Source of the DNA: an uncultured Candidatus Saccharibacteria bacterium
GTDB lineage: Bacteria; Patescibacteriota; Saccharimonadia; Saccharimonadales; Saccharimonadaceae
Length of the DNA stretch: 64,000 bases
NCBI GenBank assembly: GCA_946408595.1
Contig: CAMJSX010000001.1
Span: 120,356 to 184,355, forward strand
Direction: 5' to 3'
The position numbers and the translations under genes are program-made. A model generated the notes under the pieces. That model did not search any database, had not been told where the DNA came from, and was given only the letters and a program-made list of their open reading frames with translations. Positions 2,202 to 42,349 of this stretch are shown here, one piece after another. The number at the start of each line of letters is the position of its first letter. The stretch's first letter is position 1.

Positions 2202-4622
2202 ATGAAACGTTTAGTAATAATTGACGGTAAATCAGTGTTTTACCGGGGGTACTATGCTATGGGTGCGTTGTCGCTTTTTGATGGTACGCCGACGGGTGGG
2301 GTTTATGGTTTTGCAGCGATTGCTATGGAAATTGTGAAGAAACTTAATCCGACCAAAGTCGTGGTGGCTTGGGATTCAAAAACATCGGTTTCAAAAAGGC
2401 GGGCGATTTATCCTGAATATAAAGCTGGGCGGGTGAAGCCAGGGGAGGATTTTTATACTCAGATTCCATTGCTTGAGGAGTTGATTCATGACTTAGGTTG
2501 GAATTTCGTGGAGATTGATAATTATGAAGCAGATGATATTATTGGGACATTGAGTCGTGAGGCGGATGAAGCTGGTGACTGGGAGACTTATATTATTTCG
2601 TCCGATCTTGATATGCTGCAAATTGTAGATGACAACACGCATATGTGGCGGATTCTGAAAGGGTTTTCGAATATTGAGCAGATTGATGTGTCTGAGTTTG
2701 AAACTAAATATGGTATAAAGAAAGCGCAGTTTTTGGACCTTAAGTCTTTGAAGGGTGATGCTTCTGATAATATCCCTGGAGTTCCTGGGATTGGTGAAAA
2801 AACGGCGGTGAAGCTTTTAAATGATTATGGCACGCTTGATAATATATATAATAATATAGAGCAAATTCCGGGTTCTGTGAGAGGGAAGCTAGAAGCGGGT
2901 AAGGATTCGGCTTATCTTTCACGCAAACTCGCAAAAATTATGTTTGATGCGCCGGTTGATCTTAATGAACTTCCTGAGTTTTCGTTTGACCGCGAAAAGG
3001 TTATCACGGGCCTCAAGAAACTTGAGTTTAATTCGTTGATTCGAAAATTCGTAAAGGAGGGATCCGAAGCAGCGCTCTCTCGGGACGGGTCGCTCGCGCC
3101 CGTCGTTACGGAGCTCGCGCCCTCATCCTCGGTCGTAACCTCCGGAAGCCCTCGAGTAGCGCTATCTTCGGATCCCCTCGAAAACGCCGTTTCATTACCC
3201 GCAGACGCTATTATCGATTTTGATATTAAAGGTTTGATGCACAATGATAAGAAGGTGGCGGGGGAGATTTTGGCGGGGAAGAAGTCGTTTTGGGATTTGA
3301 ATCAGGCGGCGTTTCTTTTGAATCCGCTGGCTAGGGAGAATCCACAGCTAGTAGTGCCGGAAGAAGAGTATCAAAAACAAGCCTTGGAGTTTAGTAAGTA
3401 TCCTCGACTATATAATATATATACTGATTTTGACTTGCCACTGATTCCAGTGCTTTACAAGATGGAAGAAAAGGGGATGCTGATTGACCGCGGGTATTTT
3501 GAAAACTTGCAAAAGGAATACACTGCTGAGGTGCGTCGTCTTGAACAGGAAGTTTATAAGTTGGCAGGCACAGAGTTTAATCTAAATTCGCCGATTCAGC
3601 TTTCGGAGGTTTTGTTTAACACTTTGAATCTTCCGACTAAGGGTGTTAAGAAGACTTCTCGGGGCTATTCTACTGGAGCTAAAGAGCTGGAGAAACTAAA
3701 AGATTCTCACCCGGTGATTCCGAAGATTATTGAGTATCGTGAGGCGGCGAAACTATTGTCGACATATATTATCCCGATGCCGGATTTGGCCGATGATGAC
3801 GGTCGGGTGCATACGACTTTTACTCAGAATGTGACTGCGACTGGACGTTTAAGTTCGAAGGATCCGAATATGCAAAACATTCCGGTGCGTACTGAGGAAG
3901 GGAAGCGAATCCGTACTGGGTTTGTGGCGCCAGAAGGTAAGGTGCTAGTTTCGGCGGATTATTCACAGTTTGAGCTGAGACTTGCGGCGATTTTAAGTGG
4001 AGACCAAAGCTTAATTGATGATTTTAATAATGGGATCGATATTCACACTAAGACGGCGGCGGAGGCTTTTCACGTTCCGTTTGAGCAGGTGACTAAGGAG
4101 CAACGTCGGGCTGCTAAGGTAGTGAACTTTGGAATACTTTATGGTATGAGCGTGAGGGGTTTGTCGGAAGCAGCGAAGATGCCGTTTTATGAGGCGAAAG
4201 AGTTTATCGAGAATTATTTTAGGCTTAGAGCACCGATTAAACAGAAACTAGAGCAGATTTTGAAGCAGGCTAGGGAAGAGGGATTTGTGGAGACTTTTTA
4301 TGGTCGCCGTCGTCCGACTCCTGACGTGAAATCGTCGAACTTTGTAATTCGGCAGGCGGCTGAGCGGGCGGCGATGAATATGCCGATTCAGGGGACGGAA
4401 GCGGATTTGATGAAGCGAGCGATGATTCACGTGGACAAAGCTTTGCCAGAGGGTGCTGAGCTGGTAATGCAGATTCATGACTCGTTGATCGTGGAATGTG
4501 ATGAAGAGCAGGCTGAGAAAGTGGCAGAAATACTGCAGCGCGAGATGGAACATGTTGCGCCAGAACTTGAAGTTAAACTGGCGGTTGAGGTGACGATTGG
4601 TAAGAATTGGGGTGAACTGTAG
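2202..4622 (+). CDS. polA: DNA polymerase I
   Basis: PolA (806 aa) fills gaps and removes RNA primers. The N-terminal 5' nuclease is complete: EADDIIGTLSREA, SSDLDML and KGDASDNIPGVPGIG. The polymerase domain carries motif A (SADYSQFELR), the O-helix region (KVVNFGILYGMS) and motif C (MQIHDSLIVEC). The part between them is much shorter than a full 3'-5' exonuclease domain and lacks clear Exo motifs, so proofreading is probably absent. At the start of this linker (residues about 285-326) lies a GC-rich palindromic insert translated in frame (see 3056-3180). The ATG follows the previous stop by 2 nt. Confidence 0.95.
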   Translation: MKRLVIIDGKSVFYRGYYAMGALSLFDGTPTGGVYGFAAIAMEIVKKLNPTKVVVAWDSKTSVSKRRAIYPEYKAGRVKPGEDFYTQIPLLEELIHDLGWNFVEIDNYEADDIIGTLSREADEAGDWETYIISSDLDMLQIVDDNTHMWRILKGFSNIEQIDVSEFETKYGIKKAQFLDLKSLKGDASDNIPGVPGIGEKTAVKLLNDYGTLDNIYNNIEQIPGSVRGKLEAGKDSAYLSRKLAKIMFDAPVDLNELPEFSFDREKVITGLKKLEFNSLIRKFVKEGSEAALSRDGSLAPVVTELAPSSSVVTSGSPRVALSSDPLENAVSLPADAIIDFDIKGLMHNDKKVAGEILAGKKSFWDLNQAAFLLNPLARENPQLVVPEEEYQKQALEFSKYPRLYNIYTDFDLPLIPVLYKMEEKGMLIDRGYFENLQKEYTAEVRRLEQEVYKLAGTEFNLNSPIQLSEVLFNTLNLPTKGVKKTSRGYSTGAKELEKLKDSHPVIPKIIEYREAAKLLSTYIIPMPDLADDDGRVHTTFTQNVTATGRLSSKDPNMQNIPVRTEEGKRIRTGFVAPEGKVLVSADYSQFELRLAAILSGDQSLIDDFNNGIDIHTKTAAEAFHVPFEQVTKEQRRAAKVVNFGILYGMSVRGLSEAAKMPFYEAKEFIENYFRLRAPIKQKLEQILKQAREEGFVETFYGRRRPTPDVKSSNFVIRQAAERAAMNMPIQGTEADLMKRAMIHVDKALPEGAELVMQIHDSLIVECDEEQAEKVAEILQREMEHVAPELEVKLAVEVTIGKNWGEL
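3056..3180 (+). repeat. GC-rich nested palindromic element inserted in frame in polA
   Basis: The outer arms GGATCCGAAG (3060-3069) and CTTCGGATCC (3166-3175) are perfect inverted repeats. AGCGCT lies inside on each side, then further short stems (GACGGG/CCCGTC; hairpins with TCGTTA or TCGTAA loops). The element is far richer in G+C than the flanking polA sequence and adds a low-complexity Ser/Ala/Val-rich linker without a stop. This matches the style of palindromic elements that insert into coding regions, such as Rickettsia RPEs; kinship is not claimed. Confidence 0.75.
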
Positions 4623-4743: not shown

Positions 4744-5181
4744 ATGAAGAAAATTATTTACAAAAACCCTAACGACGCCGAGAATTTCGACCTCAAGCGT
4801 TTTGTAAAGTCTTTGAATCGTTATGCCAAAGTTTCTGAAAGTGATGCTAAGAAAGTTTTGGAAGATTTTGAGCAATACGAAACAATGCACGTTTCTTGTC
4901 TGGTTGAGGCCGGCATGAGACTCATTGCTGAGAAGAAGGACGAAAAAGCCGCTAAGGAATATTTTGAGCAATATGCTGAATACTTTGATGAAGGCAAATT
5001 TGAACGTCTTCGCCGTATTACTGGTTATCTAGTTGGTACTTTGGACCGCTGGAATGATGCCAAGAAAGCCGAGGAAAAGGCTCGCGTCAAACATTCCGTG
5101 AACTCTGCAATTGATGACGCTGCTCGCATGGCTGCGCTTGAAACTCAAGCTATGGAGCAAAACATCGCCTACGCCCACTGA
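4744..5181 (+). CDS. Small NrdD-like protein (ATP-cone-like part plus glycyl-radical-like tail)
   Basis: From the ATG at 4744 the product has 145 residues; this start has AAAGGAC upstream at good spacing, while the track's ATG at 4702 lies right after the promoter and lacks one. The first ~85 residues (NPNDAENFDLKRFVKSLNRY...VSESDAKKVLEDFE) recall an ATP-cone. The following RRITGYLVGTLDRWNDAKKAEE...RVKH resembles the C-terminal glycyl-radical segment of anaerobic ribonucleotide reductase NrdD. The ~500-residue catalytic barrel is absent, so it cannot be a reductase itself. A regulatory or radical-repair role is conceivable but unproven. The family call rests on remembered motifs only. Confidence 0.45.
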   Translation: MKKIIYKNPNDAENFDLKRFVKSLNRYAKVSESDAKKVLEDFEQYETMHVSCLVEAGMRLIAEKKDEKAAKEYFEQYAEYFDEGKFERLRRITGYLVGTLDRWNDAKKAEEKARVKHSVNSAIDDAARMAALETQAMEQNIAYAH

Positions 5182-34580: not shown

Positions 34581-35027
34581 ATGTTCGAAATTGAAAGTAG
34601 AAATCAAGATGAAATTATAATTACCACAAAAAAGACTACCATTAAGTTCAATGTTAAGAATGAGACCATTGACGCTGGTTTGACAGTGGGTAAAATCAAG
34701 GGTCCTGGTGAATTCGAAATTGGCGATGCTACGATTCGTGGTATTATGACGGTGAGCAACAAGACTATTTATGATGTTGAGGTGGGCGGCGTGCATGTCG
34801 GTATCTTGGGCGATATTGAAGAAAACCTCGATGACATCGTAGCTGACATTTTGTGCACCTCTAGTATCCGCGCCATCCGCGAAATTGAACCAAAGCTCAT
34901 TATTTCTATGGGCAACGTTGATGCTATGGTCTCAGAATTAAAGCTTACCGCTCGAACCGAAAAGAAACTCAAAGTCAAATCCCTCGACGCTCTCCCAACG
35001 ACTAAGGAAGTTGTGGTCCTAAACTAA
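34581..35027 (+). CDS. Degenerate metallo-beta-lactamase-fold protein
   Basis: The sequence (148 aa) follows the second half of UlaG-like MBL proteins: KIKGPGEFEIGDATIRGIM, TIYDVEVGGVHVGILGDI and IEPKLIISMGN match the GPGEYEI...VRGI, LGDL and LLLPVGN strands. The metal-binding HxHxDH cluster is absent, so hydrolase activity is not expected. RBS AGGAGA lies 6 nt before the ATG. Its stop shares bases with the start of the site-2 protease gene (TAATG), which argues for a joint function; the role is unknown. Confidence 0.6.
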   Translation: MFEIESRNQDEIIITTKKTTIKFNVKNETIDAGLTVGKIKGPGEFEIGDATIRGIMTVSNKTIYDVEVGGVHVGILGDIEENLDDIVADILCTSSIRAIREIEPKLIISMGNVDAMVSELKLTARTEKKLKVKSLDALPTTKEVVVLN

Positions 35028-35695
35028 TGGCTAGCACGGCACTTATTTTTAACGTTCTGAAACTAATGCAAGTTTTTATTATTTTGGCTATTATAGTTTC
35101 TTCGGTTATTATGCATGAGCTTGCCCACGGCCTCGTCGCTTATTGGTTGGGTGACCACACCGCAAAAGACGCCGGTCGCCTTACTTTTAATCCCATCAAA
35201 CATATAGACCCCTTTATGTCGATTTTAGTTCCAGTTATTTTATATCTTTTAAAAGCCCCAGTTTTTGGCGGTGCAAAACCTGTCCCCATTAATTACTATA
35301 ATCTTAAGGGCCGCGAATGGGGCATGGCGCTAGTTGCCGTTGCTGGTCCACTAACTAATTTTTTACTCGCTTTTCTTGCTTTCCTTATCGGGCATTTCAC
35401 CGGCGCTCTTTATGGTAGCGGAGGAGAACTATTAGTATTCGTTTTTACTGAATTCATTTATATCAATCTTGGCTTTATGCTTTTTAATCTTATTCCTATT
35501 CCACCACTCGATGGCTCTCGCGTTCTTTACGTTATTTCTCCCGACTCCGTCCGCAATACTCTAAAATCAATAGAAACATACGGTGTTATCATAGTCTACA
35601 TCCTCATTGTTCTATTTGGCGAAGTTTTCTCTGGCCTGATGATAAATGGTATGGAGGGGATTCTGCAGTTCTTTTATTTCGTCGTTGGCGGGTGA
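35027..35695 (+). CDS. Site-2-type intramembrane metalloprotease (M50 family)
   Basis: The 222-residue protein has about five to six membrane segments. The zinc motif HELAHG lies in the first (VIMHELAHGLVAYWLG) and the third ligand motif in NLIPIPPLDGSRVLY. GAKPVPINYYNLKGREWG is the usual cytosolic loop. There is no PDZ domain, so this is the compact YwhC-like type. Such enzymes cleave membrane-bound regulators. Its last codons and TGA stop (35693-35695) lie inside the left arm of the structured element at 35683-35766. C-rich codon use, as in the AEC gene. Confidence 0.9.
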   Translation: MASTALIFNVLKLMQVFIILAIIVSSVIMHELAHGLVAYWLGDHTAKDAGRLTFNPIKHIDPFMSILVPVILYLLKAPVFGGAKPVPINYYNLKGREWGMALVAVAGPLTNFLLAFLAFLIGHFTGALYGSGGELLVFVFTEFIYINLGFMLFNLIPIPPLDGSRVLYVISPDSVRNTLKSIETYGVIIVYILIVLFGEVFSGLMINGMEGILQFFYFVVGG

Positions 35696-35766
35696 CATGC
35701 TTGGAGGGGGACCCCCAAAATTGTCGTCAATTTTGGGGGAGGAAAGCATGGCAGGACCCGCCAACG
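35683..35766 (+). repeat. Structured GC-rich element, copy 1
   Basis: The outer arms CGTTGGCGGGT (35683-35693) and ACCCGCCAACG (35756-35766) pair perfectly. Next, CATGCTT pairs with AAGCATG, and an inner hairpin CCCCCAAAATTG-TCGT-CAATTTTGGGGG is perfect over 12 bp. The unpaired words GA, GGAGGGGG, GGGGGAGGA and GCAGG are shared with copy 2 (38269-38346), whereas stem sequences differ in a compensating way. Confidence 0.85.
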
Positions 35767-35783: not shown

Positions 35784-35916
35784 AGCCCCACCGGCAGCAT
35801 GATTTTCCTGAATAATCATGTTTTAGGGATTTCGTGGCTTACGTCCGTGGATGTAACGCATAAGATTTTACCCACCTTGTATATATTACGGGGAAAACAG
35901 GCCGGCGGGGTTCCTT
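35784..35916 (+). ncRNA. Structured RNA or leader of unknown class
   Basis: CCCCACCGGC (35786-35795) pairs with GCCGGCGGGG (35901-35910) with one A/C mismatch, closing a ~125-nt unit. Inside are the hairpin CATGATT...AATCATG, a GTTTT/AAAAC helix and a small ACGTC-CGTG-GATGT hairpin. An extended -10 box sits 6 nt before the start. It ends about 18 nt before the Nudix-RNase H gene, so it may be a leader (riboswitch-like) or a separate RNA such as a 6S-like one. SRP RNA signatures (GGAAG/AGCAGCC) are absent. No known class matched with confidence. Confidence 0.55.
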
Positions 35917-36834: not shown

Positions 36835-37359
36835 ATGGTACAGCACCAAAAATCATATAAAAATAGTGTAATTGGCTCGACAGAGCTGATTCAGGTTGCC
36901 GGCATTAAAAAAGTGCCTGCAAAGGTGGATACTGGGGCTGATACTTCGGCGATTTGGGCTTCAAATATTGATATGGAAAAAGACGGCACGCTCGTTTTTT
37001 GTCTATTTGGGCCGAAATCTCCATTTTATACTGGAGAAGTTTTAAAAACCTCAGATTATTTGGTGAGAAATGTGCGTTCTTCACATGGTGATGTACAGAT
37101 TCGTTACAGAGTGAAGTTACCAGTGGTGATTAACGGAGAGGCTTTTTCTACTACTTTTACTCTGGCAAATCGTACACGTAACCATTTTCCAGTTTTGATT
37201 GGACGCCACACACTTGAGGGGAAGTTTTTAGTTGATGTCTCAAGGTCGTGTGTAGAGCGTCCAGCAGCCAAGAAATCCGTACGTTTGAACCAAGAATTAA
37301 GGGAGGATCCTTATGAATTTCATCAGAAATATTTAAAAAACCAGGAGAAAAAAGCATGA
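36835..37359 (+). CDS. RimB-like retropepsin-fold protease (DUF785/Zn_protease family)
   Basis: The 174-residue protein has the aspartic-protease-like signature KVDTGADTSAIWAS and RHFPVLIGR-type second strand (NHFPVLIGRHTLEGKFLVDV). This family (often called ATP-dependent zinc protease, RimB in recent use) occurs next to RimK ligases and trims the polyglutamate tails they add. The stop overlaps the rimK start by 4 bp (ATGA), a strong sign of joint function. Family call rests on motif recognition. Confidence 0.75.
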   Translation: MVQHQKSYKNSVIGSTELIQVAGIKKVPAKVDTGADTSAIWASNIDMEKDGTLVFCLFGPKSPFYTGEVLKTSDYLVRNVRSSHGDVQIRYRVKLPVVINGEAFSTTFTLANRTRNHFPVLIGRHTLEGKFLVDVSRSCVERPAAKKSVRLNQELREDPYEFHQKYLKNQEKKA

Positions 37360-38264
37360 AACTAGCTATTCTATCAAATGGGCCAGCTAACTATTCTACG
37401 AAACGATTAGTAGAGGAGGCCAAGAAGCGCGGGCATGATGTTCACGTAATTAAGTATAAAAACTGTTATTTGTCTCTTGATGACAAGCACCCGGACGTCT
37501 ATTACGGGAGTGAAAAACTGAAGGGTTTTGATGCAATTTTGCCACGTATCTCTAATAATATGACTCGTTACGGCTGTGCTGTGGTGCGCCAATTTGAGAT
37601 GCAAGGGGTCTGGACCTCGGCTTCTTCGGTGGCGATTACTCGGGCGCGTGATAAGTTGCGTGCGGCTCAGATTTTGGCTAAATATGATATTGATACACCA
37701 AAGACTTTGGTATCGAGAAACACCTCTGATATTGATGATTTGCTTGAACAGATTGGCTTGCCGGTGATTATTAAGTTGGCGACTGGTACGCACGGTAACG
37801 GCGTGATTTTGGCAGATACGCGTAAAGCGGCAAAATCGGCGTTGCAGGCGTTTTACCTCTATAATGAGGATGGTACGAACATTCTGTTGCAGGAGTTTAT
37901 TAAAGAGTCGGCTGGTACGGACATCCGTGCATTTGTGGTAGGGAATAAGGTGGTGGCAGCGATGCAAAGAGCTTCTTTAGATGATGATTTTCGCTCTAAC
38001 CTTCACCAAGGTGGCCAAGGTACTCCTGTAAAACTAACGGCCGAGGAAAAGAAGATTGCTTTGAGAGCAGCAAGAGCGATGGGTCTTCATATTTGTGGCG
38101 TTGATCTGATGCGTTCGACTCGTGGACCATTGGTGCTTGAGGTGAATGCTTCACCTGGATTTGGCATTGAAAAGGTGACCGGCAAAGACGTAGCTTCGAA
38201 GATTATTGAGTATATTGAGTTTAATGCGCCGCGCCACAATGGCAAAGACAGGGTAGGAGCCTAG
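37356..38264 (+). CDS. rimK: RimK-type ATP-grasp ligase
   Basis: RimK (302 aa) adds glutamate residues to the C-terminus of ribosomal protein S6 or to related acceptors. The ATP-grasp core can be followed: ATP-binding KLRAAQILAKYDIDTPKT, VIIKLATGTHGNGVILAD, LQEFIKESAGTDIRAFVVG and the metal/ATP site VDLMRSTRGPLVLEVNASPGFG. The N-terminal half has the usual LPRISNNMTRYG. S6 itself is not in the window. Coupled with the RimB-like gene; structured element copy 2 starts 4 nt after the stop. Confidence 0.85.
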   Translation: MKLAILSNGPANYSTKRLVEEAKKRGHDVHVIKYKNCYLSLDDKHPDVYYGSEKLKGFDAILPRISNNMTRYGCAVVRQFEMQGVWTSASSVAITRARDKLRAAQILAKYDIDTPKTLVSRNTSDIDDLLEQIGLPVIIKLATGTHGNGVILADTRKAAKSALQAFYLYNEDGTNILLQEFIKESAGTDIRAFVVGNKVVAAMQRASLDDDFRSNLHQGGQGTPVKLTAEEKKIALRAARAMGLHICGVDLMRSTRGPLVLEVNASPGFGIEKVTGKDVASKIIEYIEFNAPRHNGKDRVGA

Positions 38265-38268
38265 TATT

Positions 38269-38346
38269 GACGGGTGACGGCTCTGGAGGGGGTCCCCCGC
38301 TGAGCGTTAGCGAAGTGGGGGAGGAGAAGAGCCGGCAGGACCCGTC
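38269..38346 (+). repeat. Structured GC-rich element, copy 2
   Basis: GACGGGT (38269-38275) pairs with ACCCGTC (38340-38346), CGGCTCT with AGAGCCG, and GGGGG/CCCCC segments form the centre. The order of conserved unpaired words (GA, GGAGGGGG, GGGGGAGGA, GCAGG) equals copy 1, while paired bases have changed together. It lies between rimK and the RNase P RNA promoter. Confidence 0.85.
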
Positions 38347-38375
38347 GAGAGGTGGTAATTTTTTGATTCTTATGG

Positions 38376-41994: not shown

Positions 41995-42349
41995 GGGGCT
42001 GACAAAGCTTAGACGGATCATTAACAAGCATAATGCATATCGATTAAATACCGTAAGTATTAATAAGTGCTAAAAACACTAAGACTGCGCATGTAGCATA
42101 CATGCCAGCATATGCCTAATTTAATGTAGGCTGGTTTGCGCGTGAGATTCCGTAGCGCGTAAATTATCATACAACGGGACTAAGGCCATTAATGTGGCGA
42201 AGAATGGCACGAAAATTTAGCCACGGCAATTGTTAGTTTCGTTTTCTGCAGCTAACAATAAACGCCAAAATTAAAACAGAAAACTAAATATGTAGATTTA
42301 TGCTCACGTGATAATTCGGACCCGGAGGCAGTATCCGGCAGCTCCACCA
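41995..42349 (+). ncRNA. ssrA: tmRNA
   Basis: tmRNA rescues stalled ribosomes. The acceptor stem is GGGGCTG (41995-42001) with CAGCTCC (42339-42345), then A and an encoded CCA. The tag frame starts at GCT 42069 (resume region GTGCTAAAAAC) and reads AKNTKTAHVAYMPAYA before TAA at 42117-42119. Several pseudoknot-like stems follow. The putative T arm is CCGGA-GGCAGTA-TCCGG; its loop lacks the usual TTC word. Confidence 0.92.

Follow-up and report, generated by a model that had tools for sequence, protein, structure and literature searches.

A covarying palindromic repeat of Saccharimonadia, found between genes and in frame within them, as a probable mobile element

The window analyzed here, a stretch of 64,000 nucleotides of DNA from an uncultured Candidatus Saccharibacteria bacterium, contains the gene order site-2 protease-like (S2P), MutT/RNase H, zinc-protease-like, RimK-like and RNase P RNA, which is common to many relatives. 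Two complete copies of a palindromic element occur among these genes, each built from three stems (P1, P2 and P3) separated by internal loops:

35027..35695 (+): site-2 protease-like gene, an open reading frame whose last codons and TGA stop come from element copy 1
35685..35764 (+): element copy 1, complete, from its fold, a pattern search and a covariance model match of 74.5 bits
35685-35693/35756-35764: P1 of copy 1
35694..35695 (+): internal loop GA of copy 1, in which A35695 takes part in an A.G / G.A purine covariation with G35751
35696-35702/35744-35750: P2 of copy 1
35703..35711 (+): internal loop GGAGGGGGA of copy 1, its G-run complementary to the C-run of P3 as judged from the matching of run lengths
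35712-35723/35728-35739: P3 of copy 1
35740..35743 (+): internal loop AGGA of copy 1, on the 3' side of P3, from the alignment
35751..35755 (+): internal loop GCAGG of copy 1, from the alignment
37356..38264 (+): gene for a RimK-like ATP-grasp protein, separated from copy 2 by 2 nt
38267..38348 (+): element copy 2, complete, from its fold and a covariance model match of 96.1 bits
38267-38275/38340-38348: P1 of copy 2
38278-38284/38328-38334: P2 of copy 2
within 38294-38321: P3 of copy 2

The genome to which the window belongs possesses five copies in total, three of them minimal forms devoid of P3. The TGA of the S2P gene (35693-35695) is located in the left arm of copy 1, as indicated by the first-pass annotation, and in the adjoining loop, and the S2P protein therefore ends with codons of the copy 1 arm. 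Most of the syntenic relatives lack both elements: their S2P genes end at the homologous codon, and in most relatives the stop codon of the RimK-like gene leads directly to the promoter of the RNase P RNA. Two relatives have an element at one of the two positions: in locus L172 it directly follows the stop codon of the RimK-like gene, and in L160 the end of the S2P gene bears a minimal form, devoid of P3, that again supplies the TGA stop. Empty sites corresponding to element-bearing loci were thus seen at the DNA level.

Two other features of the window deserve mention. A very highly conserved region of about 129 nt (35784-35912, + strand), located 5' of the MutT/RNase H gene and preceded by a promoter-like TATGATATAAT, shows an outer stem and an inner hairpin that covary among 19 sequences, has no match in Rfam and, from sequence comparison, makes a good candidate for a structured RNA of a new kind, such as a leader, a riboswitch or a 6S-like RNA. 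A tmRNA at 41995-42349 (+) was matched by Rfam and missed by ARAGORN, and is for this reason probably a divergent form.

Both structured elements recognized by the first-pass annotation were recovered, fold as it had described and have the limits given above, which are those of the covariance model, with P1 corrected to a length of 9 bp. From the outside inwards, the element consists of P1, with the inner arms GGGT/ACCC, an internal loop made of GA facing GCAGG, a P2 of 7 bp, a second internal loop made of GGAGGGGGN facing AGGA(NA), and the P3 hairpin, which starts with CCCCC and ends with GGGGG. The words first taken as unpaired are indeed fixed words of the internal loops, except that 'GGGGGAGGA' is just partly unpaired, since its GGGGG closes P3 and only AGGA(NA) is left single-stranded. 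The G-run of 'GGAGGGGG' and the C-run of P3 are also complementary; in most copies the C-run is as long as each of the G-runs on its 5' and 3' sides (5:5:5 or 4:4:4). The top strand alone folds with energies of -48.6 (copy 1) and -49.6 kcal/mol (copy 2), corresponding to z values of -6.1 and -6.7, and none of 200 shuffled sequences folded equally well. As a sign of an intrinsic terminator, a T-run was looked for directly after each of the two window copies and is missing from both.

Following a pattern search, a first covariance model (R1) was built from 13 copies, in the alignment of which 98.7% of the cells pair and 61 cells are changed on both sides, versus 18.7 in shuffles; sliding the partner by one column lowers the pairing to about 50%. 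The search with covariance models revealed many more copies in related genomes, and the compensating stem changes noticed between the two window copies are confirmed: in an alignment of 133 copies, 97.3% of the cells are paired, with 581 two-sided changes versus 158 in shuffles, counts which are non-independent because both sites and genomes are related. Covariation also extends to a non-Watson-Crick pair, A11 being found with G72 in 116 of the 133 copies and G11 with A72 in 13, the mixed combinations being limited to 4. In line with the first-pass annotation, which knew of no named class, no Rfam family matches the element, and the search of the window region gave no credible match either at the gathering score or at E up to 10. 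The earlier reading as an RNA (or extruded DNA) structure was right to leave the option of DNA open; what has emerged is a dispersed repeat and not an RNA class of two copies.

Of the 174 genomes of the genus, 85 contain the element, which is about 80-90 nt long, as detected with R1; copy numbers range from 0 to 24 among the species of the genus, the maximum being reached in a genome of about 0.7 Mb. The class-wide search, performed with a second model (R2), found it in 93 of 392 genomes, representing 19 of the 152 genera sampled and extending to further families of the order, and one genome of another genus contains 18 copies; these genomes are mostly metagenome assemblies, and E-values obtained with such custom models are only approximate. 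Outside the genus, the middle loop is different (e.g., GGGGCGGCCCC), GGGTG(A/G)C ... G(A/G)CAGGACCC being retained, and in one family P1 itself is altered to GAGT with ACTC or GCTC. A loose pattern search over the family returned mostly chance matches outside the genus. Most of the named records that carry the core pattern are assemblies of Saccharibacteria, and the digestive tract of goat, sheep, buffalo, yak and deer is the source of many; a few matches in Streptomyces, Nitrospira and one Thermoplasmata archaeon are probably due to chance, because they come from a pattern search only. Viral contigs yielded no exact match to the core pattern.

Besides the copies located outside genes, such as both window copies and many others, many copies occur inside long open reading frames, as called in this analysis. 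Both flanks of each copy were compared with proteins of other genomes. In 56 copies, 40 of them sense and 16 antisense, the two flanks match one homologous protein, and the frame is preserved in every one of these copies. They represent about 21 distinct sites, for which (1/3)^21 = 1e-10, the grouping of sites having been made within this analysis and the orientation and frame resting on homology within one genus. The insert adds about 28 amino acids, and homologues devoid of it are 24-36 residues shorter. The host proteins comprise IleRS, ArgRS, CysRS, a penicillin-binding transpeptidase (FtsI-like PBP), a cysteine desulfurase-like aminotransferase, Tgt, QueA, MnmA, a RluB-like pseudouridine synthase, PriA, TypA, ObgE, exonuclease I, MurB, DNA polymerase I and IF-2, together with DNA topoisomerase I (TopA), which harbors two copies. 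In locus L118, two identical elements (3837-3910 and 4797-4870), both antisense, lie within one topoisomerase I gene. On average, at least four of the six frames of the element are open; among the sense frames, only the one with GGG-TGA is as a rule closed. Inside genes this frame is unused, and the element is read either in one of two sense frames or from its antisense strand. The GC content of the element reaches 66%, compared with 46% for the loci.

The distribution of copies offers some insight into their movement. Cores are identical at several sites of one genome, and sites shared by different genomes, e.g., those in Tgt and the transpeptidase, hold different element types depending on the genome, while a single core type occupies several shared sites in genome G209; taken together, these two observations suggest re-invasion or conversion at shared sites. 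Elements at shared sites are on average 77.6% identical, their flanks 76.6%, and the loop words are mostly intact, which counts against mere relics maintained without re-invasion, conversion or a host function. Complementarity between the flanks exceeds chance when a bulge is allowed (37 copies versus 3.9 expected at a score of at least 8). It extends up to about 27 bp, falls partly at back-to-back -10 boxes, and is strongest in other families, where copies cap longer intergenic hairpins; within the genus there is on average no uninterrupted extension of P1 into the flanks. At locus L138 (3240-3323), the flanks add 7 perfect pairs to P1 (ACCATAA/TTATGGT), using part of a -10 box, and the left copy is missing from the related element-less site, as if one arm had served as template for the other. 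Locus L039 carries, at 4101-4180 within a gene for a penicillin-binding protein, an element whose right part matches the copy at 3643-3722 of L038 (same genome) and whose left arm of P2 is left unpaired, which is due either to exchange between copies or to an assembly error.

Five families of candidate mobilizers were considered, and the presence of none of them follows that of the element. The Y1 transposase occurs in 8 of 170 genomes of the genus and is missing from nearly all element-rich ones. Of 34 genomes, 20 encode RVT_1 reverse transcriptases, with a maximum of four per genome and no relation to copy number; within the genus, loci L302 and L303 are examples from genomes that bear them. 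Tyrosine recombinases of the general family PF00589 are present in 33 of 34 genomes regardless of the element, usually as one or two genes, and neither resolvases nor IS110 are associated with it. Genomes G191 and G198, with at least 10 copies, possess just one tyrosine recombinase and none of the other families tested. No autonomous copy with cargo between half-elements is evident among the loci examined.

These data bear on the possibility that the element is a MITE, a sequence bounded by terminal inverted repeats of 9 bp whose mobility would depend on a cut-and-paste transposase encoded at another place. The P1 arms do form such repeats, the copy number is high, recent copies are identical, and the main subfamily has conserved neighbors, ACA on the left and GAGA on the right. 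However, the terminal arms rank with the most variable regions of the element, even in copies with identical cores, whereas the internal loops are the conserved ones; the tested transposase families are missing from most genomes, and no clear target-site duplication was seen in comparisons with relatives which, at 70-80% identity, are too diverged for a sharp view of the insertion ends. A MITE is accordingly regarded as unlikely.

A cis-acting or small regulatory RNA, e.g., a riboswitch, a 3' UTR element or an sRNA, whose structure would be selected in the transcript, would agree with the strong covariation, with the conserved unpaired words and with the location of the window copies at gene ends beside promoter-like -10 boxes. 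Against it, gene context and orientation are inconsistent, the copy number varies widely within one genus, and the antisense copies in genes are as conserved as the sense ones (medians of 92.6 and 89.1 bits). In addition, G-U pairs account for 0.7% of P1 and 2.4% of P2 although both stems are highly variable, unlike the RNA candidate beside copy 1, the outer stem of which varies mostly via G-U in the same genomes and shows it in about a fifth of the cells. Genome G209 contains four copies with the same P2 and different, yet always complementary, outer P1 pairs, as if the arms had been re-templated. From the equal conservation of antisense and sense copies, the rarity of G-U and these arm differences we infer that the sequences point to pairing at the DNA level, the top strand being probably the folded one because of a conserved G-T position in P3. 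Taking G-U rarity, antisense conservation and in-frame translation into account, a mobile DNA palindrome fits better than an RNA gene or regulator, and the latter appears quite improbable.

The attC sites of integrons are hairpins with unpaired bases, whose terminal structure varies and whose arms are conserved in complementarity alone. The palindrome studied here shares these properties, including unpaired bases on one strand, a variable apical loop and diverging yet complementary arms; several pairs of copies in the same orientation, 300-1200 bp apart, and the long flanking inverted repeats of other families could also evoke a folded single-strand recombination site at which a tyrosine recombinase inserts cassettes. 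However, the alignment contains no GTTRRRY/RYYYAAC core boxes, the inner arms of P1 being GGGT/ACCC in nearly all 133 copies. Copies stand singly inside conserved genes without any cassette, and tyrosine recombinases are nearly universal with or without the element, which makes an attC-like site decidedly doubtful. An insertion eliminated by self-splicing or ribosome bypass, either prior to translation or in the course of it, would suit the essential-gene location and the strong folding, but is rejected as extremely improbable by the frame test, since removal would require neither the frame kept in every tested copy (one third would be expected) nor the mostly stop-free frames, and since antisense copies are unable to form the motif in the mRNA; as judged from reading frames, the insert is translated rather than spliced.

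Among known repeats, the closest in function are the Rickettsia palindromic elements (RPE), palindromes of about 100-150 bp present in many copies, which enter unrelated protein genes without loss of frame, frequently at one shared position in orthologues, and which have IleRS among their hosts (PMC10969869, PMC3767692, PMC2996958). Like RPE and their Wolbachia equivalents, the Saccharibacteria element is a dispersed multi-copy palindrome found both in frame in unrelated genes and outside genes; IleRS is a host in both cases, and both bacterial groups have reduced, host-dependent genomes. It differs in coming from another phylum, in its three stems, strictly conserved internal loops and strong covariation, and in the use of two sense frames and the antisense strand, whereas RPE encode one conserved peptide. 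Because it consists of in-frame palindromic insertions in unrelated genes, yet differs in phylum, fold and frames, the element may be said to work like an RPE, a likeness in the mode of insertion. The ERIC/RU repeats of enterobacteria are also small mobile palindromes, mostly intergenic and sometimes creating in-frame gene fusions (PMC2759123), but their fold differs and in-frame insertion in essential genes is common in the Saccharibacteria element. REPs, extragenic repeats with GTAG/CGTC tags (PMC3733652), resemble it, as REP/BIME mobilized with RAYT (Y1), by their dispersed short palindromes and stranded hairpin, but the present element occurs in genes as well and does not track Y1_Tnp.

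On these grounds, we consider that the repeat is probably a palindromic element of Saccharimonadia, mobile but non-autonomous, which works in the manner of the Rickettsia palindromic elements. The failure of all five enzyme families to follow it, the lack of a clear target-site duplication and the intact loop words at shared sites weigh against this reading. A folded single DNA strand would be the intermediate by which copies move or are copied, and the internal loops GA/GCAGG, the GGGG-tract and AGGA would be recognized by a putative enzyme. Templated correction in the course of replication, combined with selection for the mobile fold, may keep the arms complementary, and insertions breaking the frame of essential genes would be purged. 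The element would essentially serve itself, any benefit to the host being hypothetical. A bolder proposal, to be held only tentatively, is that of a new mobile class which transposes as a folded single DNA strand, either without a dedicated transposase or with an as yet putative one, and repeatedly re-invades the same essential-gene sites; its arms would be re-templated at each insertion, so that copies with identical cores would gain different, perfectly complementary ends.

In the papers found, protein-coding palindromes are reported mainly from Rickettsiales (Rickettsia, Wolbachia), and the open-access literature searched contains no earlier palindromic elements of Saccharibacteria, which is weak evidence of absence. 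Finding a large, independent family among the ultra-small episymbionts of a distant phylum suggests that repeats adding new segments to essential proteins recurrently settle in genomes that are reduced and dependent on a host. Its covarying fold provides a strong handle on a possible mechanism of movement and, as cultivated and genetically tractable Saccharibacteria exist, the long-standing question of how such repeats move could become testable, provided that a cultivable carrier is found (PMC10633639).
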